From Anaerolineae bacterium (GTDB lineage: Bacteria; Chloroflexota; Anaerolineae; UBA4142; SHND01), in contig JAJTXZ010000010.1 of NCBI GenBank assembly GCA_021463195.1, positions 1-64,000 of the forward strand: DNA of 64,000 nt, written 5' to 3'. Made by a program: the position numbers and the translations under genes. Positions 16,478-45,088 of this stretch are shown here, one piece after another (the stretch's first letter is position 1; each line of letters starts with the position of its first letter). The notes under the pieces were generated by a model. The model was not told the origin of the DNA, did no database searches, and saw only the letters and a list, made by a program, of their open reading frames with translations.

Positions 16478-16483
16478 CAAAAC

Positions 16484-16726
16484 AATAGCGACGACGGAGC
16501 GAGTAGGCAGCGCGCAGCTCCCAGCGAGAAAGGGTCATTGGTTGCGAACCCTTTTGAGCGAACTCTGCCGAAATTCACTCTCGAGCTGCAAGCGCGAACG
16601 CGAGGGCTTTTGCTAACGCTTGCCGTTTACGCACGTTACGCGACTGAGCGAGTCGGCGCGCCGACTAAAGTGGGTGGTACCGCGGGAGAATTTTTGCTCT
16701 CGTCCCAATCGGGATGAGAGTTTTTT
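16484..16726 (+). promoter_or_regulatory. T-box leader, tRNA-Phe responsive
   Basis: The conserved T-box sequence GGGTGGTACCGCG is present at about 16672-16684, followed by a terminator. Upstream, stem I shows the AGTA specifier-loop motif (after GGAGCG, about 16503), a GGCAG/CTGCC stem, a distal GGTTG loop and the specifier-loop 3' side GAAATTCAC. TTC (16574-16576), followed by a purine, would be the Phe specifier codon, in agreement with pheS downstream. Uncharged tRNA-Phe should stabilise the antiterminator and raise expression of the DUF952-pheS genes. The specifier assignment was made by eye. Confidence 0.93.
16697..16726 (+). terminator. T-box terminator hairpin
   Basis: CTCTCGTCCC (16697-16706) pairs with GGGATGAGAG (16711-16720), followed by six T. 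It is mutually exclusive with the antiterminator that contains the GGTGG T-box bulge. Confidence 0.9.
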
Positions 16727-17128: not shown

Positions 17129-18160
17129 ATGAGCGAAAACGCAACAGCATTGCAAGCGCGCGCGCTGGCGCGCCTTGAAACTATTTGGGACAATGAACAG
17201 CTCGAGGCGTGGCGCGTCGAATATATCGGACGCAAAGGCGCGGTGAACGCGTTGTTTGAACAAATCAGCGCGCTCCCGCATACGGAACGCGGCGCGTTCG
17301 GCAAAACGGCAAACGAACTCAAGCTGGCGCTGGAAGCTGCGTTCAACGCCAAAATCGGCGCCATCAAGCAGATTGAATTGTCCAAAGCGCTGGAAGCCGA
17401 ACCGTTGGATGTGACGCTGCCCGGACGCCGCCCGTCGCGCGGACATATTCATCCGACCATTCAGACGCTGCAAGAAATCTATAAAATTTTCGGCGAGATG
17501 GGTTTCCAAGTGTATCGCACGCGACAGGTGGAAACGGACATTATGAATTTTCAACTGCTCAATATTCCGCCGTTTCATCCCGCGCGCGATAATTGGAGCA
17601 CGTTCTATGTCGCGGGTTCTGACGAAAAGGTCTTGCTGCGCACGCACACTTCGCCGGGCCAAATTCGCGCGATGCGCGCGGCGTATCCGAATCCGGTGCG
17701 CGCGATTTTGCCGGGCTTGTGTTATCGCTATGAACAAGTCAGCGCGCGCTATGAAATCCAATTCAATCAAGTCGAAGGCATTGTCGTTGGACACAACATT
17801 ACGTTTGGCAATTTAAAAGGCACGCTCACGGAATTCGCGCGGCGTATGTTTGGCGAGCGCCCCGTTCGTTTTTACGGCGACCATTTCCCGTTCACCGAAC
17901 CGAGCGCGCAGATGGATGTGCGCTGCATCATTTGCGAAGGGCGCGGCACGGACGCGCTGTGCAAATATACCGGCTGGTTGGAAATCCTCGGTTCGGGGAT
18001 GGTGCATCCCCAAGTCTTGCGCAACGGCGGTTATGACCCGAACGAGTGGAGCGGTTTCGCGTTTGGCATGGGCCCCGAACGCATTGCAATGTTAAAGCAT
18101 GGCATCACCGATATTCGGAATTTCTGGAACAATGATTTACGCTTTTTGGAACAGTTTTAA
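17129..18160 (+). CDS. pheS: Phenylalanine--tRNA ligase alpha subunit
   Basis: A 343-residue class II aminoacyl-tRNA synthetase catalytic subunit. The N-terminal coiled-coil (about 1-85) is followed by motif 1 (HPTIQTLQEIYKIFGEMGF), motif 2 (GLCYRYEQVSARYEIQFNQVEG) and motif 3 (SGFAFGMGPERIAMLKHGI). The length is normal and the C-terminus DIRNFWNNDLRFLEQF is canonical. It partners with PheT to charge tRNA-Phe. Expression is set by the T-box upstream. Unusually, pheT is not adjacent: two membrane-protein genes lie between. Confidence 0.98.
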   Translation: MSENATALQARALARLETIWDNEQLEAWRVEYIGRKGAVNALFEQISALPHTERGAFGKTANELKLALEAAFNAKIGAIKQIELSKALEAEPLDVTLPGRRPSRGHIHPTIQTLQEIYKIFGEMGFQVYRTRQVETDIMNFQLLNIPPFHPARDNWSTFYVAGSDEKVLLRTHTSPGQIRAMRAAYPNPVRAILPGLCYRYEQVSARYEIQFNQVEGIVVGHNITFGNLKGTLTEFARRMFGERPVRFYGDHFPFTEPSAQMDVRCIICEGRGTDALCKYTGWLEILGSGMVHPQVLRNGGYDPNEWSGFAFGMGPERIAMLKHGITDIRNFWNNDLRFLEQF

Positions 18161-39686: not shown

Positions 39687-41699
39687 ATGTCTGATCCAAA
39701 CGATTCCAATTATCAACCGTTCAAATCCTTGCCGACGCATAGCCAGCGCAAGCAGAACGCCGCGCGCGCGGCGTTACCTCCGCCGCAGCCGCCGGAATTG
39801 ACGCCCGCAGCGCGCATTGATTTGCGCCGCGCGCAACGTCGCGCGCAACGTCGCGCGCTGCCGCGTCTTGGCGCGCCGTTATGGGTGTTGTTTGTCACCG
39901 GATTATTTATCGTCGCCGGTGTGGTGGGGTACCAAGTCTATATCCACGACCGCGCGGCGCCAGGGGTGCGCGTGTTGGGCGAAGAAATCGGCGGTATGAC
40001 GCGCGCACAGGCGGACGAACGCATTCGCGTCAAGTTGGGCGACCCCAATGTATTATTGGCGCGTTTTGGCGGCGAACAAATTATTTTGCGCGATGGCTCC
40101 CAAGTCTATCGCGCGTGGCCCTGGGAGCTCGGCTTTCGCAGCGATTTAAAGCCCGCGCTCGATGCCGCGTTTGAAATAGGGCATCGCGCGGATTGGTCGT
40201 TAGCGCTCATCGAACAGGCGCGCGCGTTAGTAATCGGCGCGGATGTAAACGCGTCGGCGGCGTTTGATGAAACGATTGCGAAACAGTATGTTAGTGTGTT
40301 GGCGGCGCAGCTTGACCGATGGCCGCGCGAGGCGTCGTATCGGCTTGAAGGAATGCAGTTGATTGAAACGCCCGCGCTGGCGGGGCGGCGTCTGGATGGC
40401 GATGAAACTTTGGCGCGCATCCGCAAATTCGCCGAGTTGCAGGATCGCGGCGTCAATGCTTTCGCGGGCGAAATCGCGCTGCCGGTTCAAGAGTTAAAAC
40501 CGCACGCGGTAAACGCGCAGCAGGCGCAAGCCCAAATCAACGCGTTTTTGCAAGCGCCGTTGGTGTTGAAATTTCAAGACCGCGCGTGGGCAGTTGACCA
40601 AGCCGCGCTCGCGCGTTGGTTGACGCTGCAACCCATTTCAAATGCGGATGGTTCATTGACGTACCAAGCGCGTCTGAATGAGGCGGCGATCCGATTGCAA
40701 GTGGAGGCGTTGGCGCGCGAAATCAATCAGGCGCCGCGCGACGCGCGTTTTCATTTTGACAATGGCGCGCTCACGCTGATAACATCGAGTCAGGAAGGGC
40801 GCGCATTGGATGTGGACGCGACGACGCAAATGGCGCTGGCGCGGTTTCGGCAAGCCACCGCCGGGGCGCGTGCGCCGGGCAACGCGGCGCCAGATAACTC
40901 GCCGCTCAACGCGCTGCGAAATCAAACCATTGATCTTGTGGTCGCTGTGACTAAACCGACGATTGACGCGCGCGATAAAGAATCGTTTGGCATCACCGAA
41001 TTGGTCGCGAGCGGCACGAGTCAATTCAAAGGTTCGATTCCAAATCGCATTCAAAATATAAAGACCGCGCAAGCGTCATTTGATGGCGTGGTGATTGCGC
41101 CCGGCGCGACTTTTTCGTTTAATCATTATTTGAGTGAAATCGTCGAGGCGAACGGGTATGCGGACGCGTATGTGATTTTTGGCAACAAGACGGTGCTGGG
41201 ACCCGGCGGCGGCGTGTGTCAAGTTTCGACGACGATGTTTCGCGCGGCGTTCTTTGCGGGTTTTCCGATTACGGAACGTTGGGAACATGCGTATCGCGTA
41301 GGATATTATGAGCCGCCCAAAGGTTTGGATGCGGCGGTGTTTGTGCCGAGCGCGGATATGAAATTTGTCAATGATACGCCAAACTATATTTTGATTGAAG
41401 CGGCGCTGGATGAAAAAAATCTGCGCTTGACTTTTAATTTTTACGGTACGCGTCCGAACGGGCGCGAAGTGAAAATGACCGAGCCGGTGGTGAGCAATAA
41501 AGTTCCGCATCCGCCGACCAAGTATATTGACGATCCGACTTTGCCGCGCGGCACGACCAAGCAAATTGATTTCGCGGTGGACGGCGAAGATGTGACGTTA
41601 TATCGCGAGATTTATCAGAATGGGCAGTTGGTGACGCGCGAAAAATTTTTCAGTCACTATGACCCGTGGCAAGCGGTGTTTTTACGGGGAACGCGTTAA
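39687..41699 (+). CDS. VanW family membrane-anchored protein
   Basis: A 670-residue protein. A basic cytoplasmic N-terminus (about 1-65) is followed by one transmembrane helix (GAPLWVLFVTGLFIVAGVVGYQVYI) and two peptidoglycan-binding-4/YoaR-like modules (about 85-390; each 'ITLxxGGxxxA...' type). The VanW domain follows (ASFDGVVIAPGATFSFNHYL... GGGVCQVSTTMFRAAFFAG) and then a C-terminal beta domain. VanW proteins are associated with cell-wall modification, and the role in vancomycin resistance is unproven. It has its own promoter and terminator and is probably monocistronic. Confidence 0.92.
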   Translation: MSDPNDSNYQPFKSLPTHSQRKQNAARAALPPPQPPELTPAARIDLRRAQRRAQRRALPRLGAPLWVLFVTGLFIVAGVVGYQVYIHDRAAPGVRVLGEEIGGMTRAQADERIRVKLGDPNVLLARFGGEQIILRDGSQVYRAWPWELGFRSDLKPALDAAFEIGHRADWSLALIEQARALVIGADVNASAAFDETIAKQYVSVLAAQLDRWPREASYRLEGMQLIETPALAGRRLDGDETLARIRKFAELQDRGVNAFAGEIALPVQELKPHAVNAQQAQAQINAFLQAPLVLKFQDRAWAVDQAALARWLTLQPISNADGSLTYQARLNEAAIRLQVEALAREINQAPRDARFHFDNGALTLITSSQEGRALDVDATTQMALARFRQATAGARAPGNAAPDNSPLNALRNQTIDLVVAVTKPTIDARDKESFGITELVASGTSQFKGSIPNRIQNIKTAQASFDGVVIAPGATFSFNHYLSEIVEANGYADAYVIFGNKTVLGPGGGVCQVSTTMFRAAFFAGFPITERWEHAYRVGYYEPPKGLDAAVFVPSADMKFVNDTPNYILIEAALDEKNLRLTFNFYGTRPNGREVKMTEPVVSNKVPHPPTKYIDDPTLPRGTTKQIDFAVDGEDVTLYREIYQNGQLVTREKFFSHYDPWQAVFLRGTR

Positions 41700-43536: not shown

Positions 43537-44034
43537 TTAACTCTGTGAATCAATCAATTCGCGCAATCGCGCGCTCTGCAAATGGCACAGCGCGATGGCG
43601 ACAGCATCCGCCGCGTCATCGGGTTTGGGCGCTTGGTCCAAACGCAGCAGCACGCGCACCATTTGTTGCATCTGATATTTGTCCGCGCCGCCGTAGCCCG
43701 CGACCGCTTGCTTGATTTCGTTGGGCGTGTATTCGGCGAGCGGCAGACACGCCTGCGCGAGGGCGAGCAGGATGACGCCGCGCGCGTGTCCGACGGATAG
43801 GGCGGTGGTGGTATTGCGCGAGAAAAAAAGTTTTTCGACCGCGGCGGTGTTCGGTTTGTATGCGCGAATGATTGCGCCAAGCTCGTCGTAAATCTTGAGC
43901 AGGCGAAATTCAAGCGGAGTTTTCGCGGGTGTGGCAATCGCGCCGCAGGCGACAAGTTCATAATCGTCGCCGACGGCGCGCACGATGCCGTATCCACACA
44001 ACGCGGTGCCGGGGTCAATGCCTAATGCAATCAT
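43537..44034 (-). CDS. ruvC: Crossover junction endodeoxyribonuclease RuvC
   Basis: A 165-residue RNase-H-fold Holliday-junction resolvase. It shows the catalytic acidic residues in IALGIDPGTALCGYGIV, AVEKLFFSRNTTTALSVGHARGVILLA, YTPNEIKQAVAGYGGADKYQMQQMV and the C-terminal DDAADAVAIALCH. ATG 44034 is the conserved start; its codon lies inside the first unit of an octamer tandem repeat that fills the space to yebC. It acts with RuvA and RuvB in recombination repair. Confidence 0.97.
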   Translation of the reverse strand: MIALGIDPGTALCGYGIVRAVGDDYELVACGAIATPAKTPLEFRLLKIYDELGAIIRAYKPNTAAVEKLFFSRNTTTALSVGHARGVILLALAQACLPLAEYTPNEIKQAVAGYGGADKYQMQQMVRVLLRLDQAPKPDDAADAVAIALCHLQSARLRELIDSQS

Positions 44035-44111
44035 AGTGGGATAGCGCAATAGTCCAATAGCGCAATAGCGGGACATGGGCTATCACACGATCGCGCGATT
44101 ACGCGATTGCG
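44033..44111. repeat. Octamer short tandem repeats between yebC and ruvC
   Basis: Block 1 (44033-44072) reads ATAGTGGG/ATAGCGCA/ATAGTCCA/ATAGCGCA/ATAGCGGG. Block 2 (44088-44111) reads CGATCGCG/CGATTACG/CGATTGCG. Block 1 overlaps the ruvC start codon and block 2 abuts the yebC stop codon. Confidence 0.8.
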
Positions 44112-44873
44112 CTACGCAGTGGCTTTTTCAAATTCAGCCATCACTTGATCTGTGATATTGAGATTGGTGATGACTTTTTGCACATCGTCCAGTTCTTCGA
44201 GTTGTTCGACGAGCTGCATCGTCTTGACGGCGTCGGCGGTGGAAACTTCGGCGTTGGTTTTGGCGATGAGCGTGACTTCGGCATTCTCGATGGGGATGCG
44301 ACGCTTTTGCATCTCGTCGCGCACGGGGCGCAAATGTTCGGGCGCGACGTACGCTTCCACATGCTCGTCTTCGGTTTGAATATCATCTACGCCCGCGTCA
44401 ATCAATTCGAGTTCGAGCTCTTCGGCGCTTTTGCCTTGCACGGGCACTGTAAAGATGCCGCGCTTTTCAAACATCCATGTGACGGAACCTGCCGACGCGA
44501 GATTGGCGCCGGCGCGCGTAATGACGCGTCGCACTTCGGACGCGGCGCGATTGCGATTATCGGTGAGGACTTGGACAATCAACGCCGCGCCGCCGGGGCC
44601 ATAGACTTCATACGAGATGTCTTCGAGTTGACCGCCATCGCTCGCATTGCCGAGACCGCGTTGAATGGCGCGCTCGATATTGTCTTTGGGCATGTTTGCC
44701 GCGCGCGCTTTATCCGTCGCGAGCCGCAAGGCAAAATTCGCCTCGGGGTCGCCGCCGCCTTCGCGCGCCGCGACGGTGATGTCGCGCGCGATGCGCGTGA
44801 AAATTTGACCGCGCTTGGTGTCGGCGGCGCCTTTTTTGCGTTTAATCGTTGACCATTTGGAATGACCTGACAT
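44112..44873 (-). CDS. yebC: YebC/PmpR family protein (translation factor / regulator)
   Basis: A 253-residue three-domain YebC protein. It opens MSGHSKWSTIKRKKGAADTKRGQIFTRIARDITVAAREGGGDPEANFALRL, and YEVYGPGGAALIVQVLTDNRNRAASEVRR and MFEKRGIFTVP follow. The family was long described as transcriptional regulators. Recent work, recalled and not checked here, links YebC paralogues and mitochondrial TACO1 to relief of ribosome stalling at proline stretches. It heads the ruvC-ruvA operon. The start at 44873 follows a CCCGGAG sequence. A leader reading frame and a terminator lie in its 5' leader. Confidence 0.96.
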   Translation of the reverse strand: MSGHSKWSTIKRKKGAADTKRGQIFTRIARDITVAAREGGGDPEANFALRLATDKARAANMPKDNIERAIQRGLGNASDGGQLEDISYEVYGPGGAALIVQVLTDNRNRAASEVRRVITRAGANLASAGSVTWMFEKRGIFTVPVQGKSAEELELELIDAGVDDIQTEDEHVEAYVAPEHLRPVRDEMQKRRIPIENAEVTLIAKTNAEVSTADAVKTMQLVEQLEELDDVQKVITNLNITDQVMAEFEKATA

Positions 44874-44920
44874 GCGAATCTCCGGGCTTGCTGTTGGGAT
44901 GAAATAACAATCGGATGCGA

Positions 44921-44975
44921 AAATAAAAAACACGCTGGCTATTGGTTTGAGTTAACAAACAATAGCAACAGCGCG
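44921..44975 (-). terminator. Intrinsic terminator inside the yebC 5' leader (attenuator)
   Basis: On the minus strand, CGCGCTG (44975-44969), GCTATTG (44966-44960) and TTTG (44959-44956) pair with CAAA(C), CAATAGC (44944-44938) and CAGCGTG (44937-44931). This gives about 18 base pairs interrupted only by a TT bulge and a single C, followed by TTTTTTATTTT. It lies about 50 bases upstream of the yebC start codon and downstream of a TATAAT promoter, so it should reduce yebC expression unless disrupted. Confidence 0.82.
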
Positions 44976-45049
44976 TCGCTCGGAGGTTTGCGCAGACGCG
45001 AACCGCGACGTTGTTGCGGCTTGAAAAGCGTAATAATTCGTGACCTCAT
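44939..45049 (-). CDS. Putative 36-residue leader peptide of yebC
   Basis: This short frame begins with the ATG at 45049, only 9 bases after the -10 box, so its message would be almost leaderless. It ends at a TAG (44941-44939) inside the 3' arm of the attenuator hairpin. The product is basic in the middle, then has Lys-Pro-Pro (CCT CCG at 44986-44981) and, three codons later, four consecutive Leu codons (CTG TTG CTA TTG, 44971-44960) that lie in the 5' arm of the terminator. A ribosome paused at the Pro pair or the Leu run would block hairpin formation. Existence as a translated peptide is inferred from position and structure only. Confidence 0.55.
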   Translation of the reverse strand: MRSRIITLFKPQQRRGSRLRKPPSDALLLLFVNSNQ

Positions 45050-45058
45050 TCCGCTGTC

Positions 45059-45088
45059 ATTATAGCACGCGCGCGCTATTTCGTTGAA
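45059..45088 (-). promoter_or_regulatory. Promoter of the yebC operon
   Basis: On the minus strand TTCAAC (plus 45083-45088), an 18-base spacer ending in TGC, and TATAAT (plus 45059-45064), an extended -10. The rest of the 44874-45173 gap holds the leader described separately and the start region of the divergent gene. Confidence 0.7.

Follow-up and report, generated by a model that had tools for sequence, protein, structure and literature searches.

A conserved leader peptide with a Pro-Pro motif runs into a terminator ahead of yebC and may let YebC regulate its own operon

The window, that is, the whole 64,000-nt stretch of DNA that was analysed, carries on its minus strand a promoter, a short leader ORF and an intrinsic terminator ahead of yebC, with ruvC directly 3' of yebC (Table 1). 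The window YebC scores 309 bits against PRK00110, for which the cut-off is 243, thus meeting sequence-family membership, and it is 79-89% identical to the YebC of the five other genomes examined from the same genus. The yebC-ruvC order is identical in all six. The gene upstream of the leader is divergent; therefore, the terminator is not that of a neighbouring gene. The gap between yebC and ruvC (44035-44111, minus strand) holds a short repeat-like stretch (GCGTAATCGCGCGATCGTG, CTATTGCGCTATTG and so on), the length of which varies among relatives. Near the operon, 39687-41699 (plus strand) encodes a protein with a partial VanW-domain match, and a T-box leader (16482-16710, plus strand; Rfam RF00230, 106 bits) lies 5' of a short ORF and an apparent pheS (17129-18160).

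Table 1. Positions of the features at the yebC locus in the window.
Feature	Position	Strand	Basis
Extended -10 promoter, TGC-TATAAT	45059..45067	-	Sequence
Leader peptide ORF, MRSRIITLFKPQQRRGSRLRKPPSDALLLLFVNSNQ, 36 aa plus TAG (44941-44939), ATG at 45049	44939..45049	-	Six of six genus genomes, substitutions, profile
Arg-Lys-Pro-Pro codons CGC AAA CCT CCG, proposed RxPP-like stall site	44981..44992	-	Conservation; RxPP literature
AAACCUCC, Lys-Pro-Pro codons, complementary to the yebC Shine-Dalgarno	44982..44989	-	Readthrough RNA folds
Terminator lower stem, 5' arm GACGCGCUG, conserved	44969..44977	-	Fold and comparison
Terminator upper stem, 5' arm, variable with compensation	44956..44966	-	Fold and comparison
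Terminator upper stem, 3' arm, one bulged base	44938..44949	-	Fold and comparison
Terminator lower stem, 3' arm CAGCGUGUU	44929..44937	-	Fold and comparison
U-tract, expected 3' end of the short terminated transcript	44920..44930	-	Sequence
yebC Shine-Dalgarno, CGGAG	44880..44884	-	Sequence; GGAGGT in the other five genomes
yebC, 253 aa, YebC/PmpR family, ATG at 44873	44112..44873	-	PRK00110 equivalog
ruvC, start MIALGIDPG near 44034, directly 3' of yebC	43537..44034	-	Syntenic in six of six

The comparison covers six species of one genus (uncultured, Chloroflexota-type), all of them draft assemblies. The leader lies directly 5' of yebC in the five other genus genomes as in the window, and because ORF, promoter spacing and terminator recur at this place in all six, the arrangement is beyond chance. 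The TATAAT precedes the leader ATG by 9 nt in the window and by 7-10 nt across the six genomes, a spacing that is kept although the next few residues of the peptide vary. The transcription start predicted at about 45053-45050 would leave a 5' UTR of only 0-4 nt, making the leader mRNA near-leaderless. Genome-wide counts lend leaderless starts mild support and no more: in the source genome, TATAAT occurs 6-10 nt 5' of an ATG 161 times and 16-20 nt 5' of one 121 times, against 32 for the reversed pattern in each case.

The peptide itself has a strict core, LFKP(Q/R)QRRGxxxRKPPSD(A/T)L across the genus (consensus form LFKPQQRRGxxxRKPPSDAL), with L8, F9, K10, P11, Q13, R14, R15, G16, R20, K21, P22, P23, S24 and D25 invariant. 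The conserved stretch reaches about 15 residues behind the Pro-Pro, the part that is expected to lie in the upper exit tunnel. A peptide profile finds exactly one strong copy in each genus genome, all six at yebC (E 3e-22 to 1e-18). The same search found no strong copy in 14 sister-family genomes, none outside the genus in overlapping samples of 298 genomes from the class and 400 from the phylum, and none at efp or any other gene in the genomes sampled. Weak profile matches (L119-L129) were considered as distant copies and rejected, being unrelated frames without yebC nearby. Where it was measured in the sister family, the distance from the TATAAT to the yebC start is 32-69 nt, which leaves no room for a leader, and a crude scan of about 100 other yebC loci gave no convincing case of a comparable leader combining Pro-Pro with a terminator. 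YebC is present in 58 of 60 relatives. From the genomes sampled, we infer that the leader arose, or was retained, in this genus or family only. The leader has no match to a known protein in Pfam or NCBIfam and no convincing one in PDB.

The leader peptide is translated and under selection, as the evolutionary evidence shows, because the changes in it are mostly synonymous. The core of 20 codons holds 25 distinct changes from consensus, and 16 of them are synonymous, against 7.9 +/- 2.3 when the same base changes are shuffled randomly across the core (P = 6e-4); pairwise differences at codon positions 1, 2 and 3 number 32, 26 and 86, and every pairwise dN/dS value is below 1. This bears on the possibility that the leader is a structured RNA, either a riboswitch or a protein-binding leader, in which the open frame is incidental. 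In favour of it, more codons are fixed than yebC would lead one to expect (7 of 15 versus 3.6, P = 0.04) and a hairpin AAGCCRC/GYGGCTT can be drawn; however, third-position changes dominate, no Rfam family matches the leader RNA, and the hairpin, which lies at KPQQ, is broken in one genome (L008). We consider this explanation practically ruled out.

In the window, the terminator has a lower stem of 9 bp and an upper stem of 11 bp with one base bulged out, separated by a UU bulge on the 5' side. A run of 5-7 T follows the terminator in all six genomes, and its hairpin energy ranges from -20 to -31 kcal/mol across them. All 16 pairs of both helices are standard in the five alignable genomes, with two-sided changes in three columns and one-sided changes in others, while the sixth, L006, has independently rebuilt an 11-bp upper helix. 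The Ala to Thr change of the peptide in L007 turns a lower-stem G-U into an A-U. An intrinsic terminator conserved by compensatory change thus stands between the promoter and yebC. The leader RNA fold beats 196 of 200 shuffles (z -2.45), and the leader ORF always runs into the terminator, its stop codon falling in the 5' arm, the loop or the 3' arm depending on the genome.

The preliminary description, made from the sequence alone, had read here a TGC-TATAAT promoter, an ATG 9 bases on, a leader frame, a TAG at 44941-44939 and a terminator, together with Lys-Pro-Pro codons and four Leu codons; all of these held in the minus-strand sequence of the window, where the Lys-Pro-Pro codons lie at 44989-44981 and the Leu codons at 44971-44960. 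It had named beforehand a lack of conservation of frame or terminator in relatives as refuting, and the reading survived, since frame, Pro-Pro and terminator are kept in six of six. Its plain 18-bp terminator held only in part, given the two stems and bulges described above. It had also assigned the masking of the terminator to a second hairpin (45010-45001 with 44988-44974), and this role failed: the hairpin can be drawn, but it is absent from the minimum-energy fold and overlaps just the first terminator bases, so that a strong hairpin remains and the antiterminator is weak. We attribute the masking instead to a stalled ribosome on the lower stem. No trp-type antiterminator was found either, as the candidate CGUCG/CGACG leaves a terminator of -13 to -24 kcal/mol and loses one pair in L007.

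As to the signal, the earlier reading had proposed Pro-Pro/YebC sensing with Leu-tRNA or general translation sensing as alternatives. A classical attenuator of the trp/leu type, for Leu or another amino acid, has the four Leu codons of the window copy in its favour. Against it, the stretch reads ALLLLF, ALFPF, ALLLF, AL*, TLLLF and ALFLF across the six genomes, the Leu codons sit in a terminator arm, and yebC is not biosynthetic. Leu sensing is rejected, the run being broken or absent in L004, L006 and L008, of which L006 ends in DAL*, and any amino-acid attenuator of this type is close to excluded. Because the four-Leu run occurs only in the window copy, whereas RKPPSD is invariant, Pro-Pro/YebC sensing is preferred and supported; that YebC is the signal and that the KPP stall is sufficient are inferred.

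The position of the Pro-Pro relative to the terminator offers a direct route by which a ribosome could act. The spacing between RKPP and the base of the terminator is fixed in all six genomes. We modelled the leading edge of the ribosome at +15 from the first P-site base and folded the RNA with this footprint masked. When the P site is placed on the second Pro, the footprint spans the entire 9-bp lower stem in six of six, ending at the 5' UU bulge, and the 3' arm, now free, separates the hairpin that is left from the U-tract. Moving the stall back by one codon still leaves little of the lower stem, while with masking at KPQQ or Arg15 the full terminator remains. That the position of the ribosome decides whether the terminator forms is a prediction of these masked-footprint folds, without experiment. 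The modelled register can be set beside what is known of YebC: Pro-Pro stalls are relieved by YebC, and S. pyogenes lacking it shows more pausing once the P site holds the second Pro and over the next three codons (PMC12234827). Such relief is established for members from E. coli, S. pyogenes and B. subtilis and for mitochondrial YebC/TACO1; in E. coli, YebC_I, which relieves Pro-Pro stalls, is stronger than YebC_II, and in Salmonella YebC_I overlaps with EF-P in function. For the YebC of the source organism, the activity is inferred from family membership.

Whether RKPP arrests a ribosome is less certain. The leader meets the criterion of an Arg-x-Pro-Pro in an upstream ORF, RKPP being present in all six genomes. 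RxPP arrest has been reported for x = Gly, Ala, Ser and Pro, and RPP alone did not stall in E. coli; because the reported x residues are small and x is Lys here in six of six, the small-x criterion is not met and membership in the RxPP class is not claimed. KPPS is not among the known strong stalls, and both the polarity and the strength of a KPP stall are inferred, without bench data. It is also possible that EF-P, which five of the six genus genomes have, relieves the stall alone. No EF-P C-terminal domain was found in two draft genomes, G005 and G009 (18 of 20 have one), possibly because of an assembly gap; the yebC leader is present in G005 all the same.

A layer missed by the preliminary description is the pairing of the Lys-Pro-Pro codons, AAA CCU CC(N), with the yebC Shine-Dalgarno (SD). 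In folds of the readthrough RNA from the six genomes, the SD has an unpaired probability of 0.00-0.17 and is expected to form some three to seven pairs with AAACCUCC; once the footprint of the stalled ribosome is masked, the probability rises to 0.09-0.42, a partial release. The first Pro of the pair is always CCU, yet this codon makes up only 38 of 829 Pro codons (4.6%) in the window genes, and the two other leader Pro codons vary. Two explanations compete, and we prefer neither. First, CCU may serve the anti-SD pairing: averaged over all synonymous Lys-Pro-Pro codings, SD exposure is lowest with CCU as the first Pro codon in five of six genomes; the exception is the window genome (L003), where the SD has drifted to GGAGAU and the codon choice brings no gain in sequestration. 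Second, CCU may serve as a slow codon, since in E. coli a CCU opening a Pro-Pro pair is avoided, slow and +1-slippery (PMC8129111). Downstream of the slippery CCU-C, all six genomes have a +1 frame that continues without a stop beyond the terminator (44958-44842, minus strand, in the window, and its equivalents in L004-L008) and that in L008 is in frame with yebC, while the -1 frame is not open in every genome. The open +1 frame may be chance, or it may let shifted ribosomes traverse the hairpin; possibly, slippage at the fixed CCU-C adds a further output.

We consider it very likely that a translated attenuator lies ahead of yebC, and we propose the following mechanism. As the leader starts near the mRNA 5' end, the ribosome would trail RNA polymerase closely and pause at Arg-Lys-Pro-Pro. 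When YebC (with EF-P) is ample, the ribosome would pass quickly, finish inside the hairpin and depart, the terminator would form, and yebC-ruvC would be off; in any readthrough transcript with a ribosome-free leader, AAACCUCC would pair with the yebC SD and block translation. When YebC is scarce, the ribosome would linger at the Pro-Pro and cover the 9-bp lower stem, leaving the upper hairpin apart from the U-tract, so that RNA polymerase would read on; the stalled footprint would also hide AAACCUCC and free the SD. YebC would then climb until the stall is relieved. We give this reading, an RxPP-like stalling leader through which YebC exerts negative feedback on its own operon by terminator occlusion and SD release, a probability of roughly 0.6, and no bench data support it. 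Three points in it are inferred: RKPP would have to stall the native ribosome, the relief would have to come from YebC and not from EF-P or another cue, and unstalled ribosomes would have to clear the hairpin early enough for termination.

Two objections concern the sign and the specificity of this response. In E. coli, a polyproline stretch 5' of a terminator raised termination by uncoupling, but the stall there was not on the stem (PMC5021804); we expect the reversed sign here because the fixed spacing seats the ribosome on the stem. A fast ribosome entering the hairpin could possibly block termination as well. This leads to the pyrL-like alternative, in which any ribosome following RNA polymerase blocks termination through general coupling and no specific stall is needed. 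The ORF always enters the terminator, a start with almost no 5' UTR favours tight coupling, and the variable stop position fits; however, this alternative leaves the strict conservation of the peptide core and of the Pro-Pro-to-stem spacing unexplained, and we judge it very unlikely.

A stall at RKPP could also respond to another cue, with yebC as the output and not the sensor; EF-P or ABC-F activity, a ribosome-targeting antibiotic, arginine or polyamines, and proline charging were considered. Conservation reaches about 15 residues N-terminal of the Pro-Pro, as far as in known arrest peptides that interact with the tunnel; EF-P is present, and EF-P-controlled leaders with Pro codons exist (mgtP, cited in PMC5021804). 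Nevertheless, the regulated gene itself encodes a Pro-Pro stall factor, making self-sensing the simplest account, and the leader is not at efp or other genes in the genomes searched; another cue is therefore unlikely. YebC feedback remains the preferred reading.

A bolder reading, which we hold no more firmly than its opposite, is that the nascent peptide evolved as a gauge of YebC activity in a two-lock feedback over transcription and translation. This would be the first case in which a factor that relieves Pro-Pro stalls is controlled through the motif on which it acts, a claim on which the balance is equally undecided. YebC/TACO1 was recognised as a Pro-Pro translation factor only in 2024-2025. 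The apparent YebC-sensing circuit would offer an evolution-chosen YebC-dependent substrate and a simple activity reporter, and would hint at what divides YebC targets from EF-P targets. The leader is, moreover, a regulatory peptide specific to one clade, and its emergence can be located between two sister families. In the open-access literature searched, there is no description of yebC control by attenuation, leader peptide or upstream ORF, and the text of the Sec/YidC arrest-peptide survey mentions neither yebC nor Chloroflexota.

Among known systems, the RxPP arrest peptides are ApdA, ApdP, SecM (RAGP) and the RQH family 5' of secA, secDF and yidC (PMC10951233, PMC12992588, PMC10987492). They share with the yebC leader an upstream Arg-x-Pro-Pro ORF, diverse N-terminal tunnel residues and feedback on the activity of the downstream product; unlike them, the yebC leader has Lys as x, no signal or membrane segment, a translation factor as target and a terminator readout. 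In Salmonella mgtP/mgtCBR, consecutive leader Pro codons likewise link stalling to downstream transcription and the EF-P level matters, but mgtP uses alternative stem-loops in a Mg2+ operon, whereas here a stall-relief factor would be regulated and the terminator would be covered directly by the ribosome. The trp, his and leu attenuators share the leader peptide and terminator; the yebC leader is without their conserved regulatory codon run or a good antiterminator hairpin. In E. coli pyrL-pyrBI, a leader ORF also runs into an intrinsic terminator and the ribosome position is decisive, the cue there being coupling to RNA polymerase speed, whereas here it would be peptide-dependent stalling. 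Translation factors that gauge their own activity on their own mRNA include RF2, through the prfB programmed frameshift, and IF3, through the infC start codon; they differ from the yebC leader in the factor and in using a frameshift or initiation device, not attenuation. Arrest-type leaders, occlusion attenuators and SD sequestration are thus known kinds of control, and it is their combination, together with the factor regulated, that appears new.
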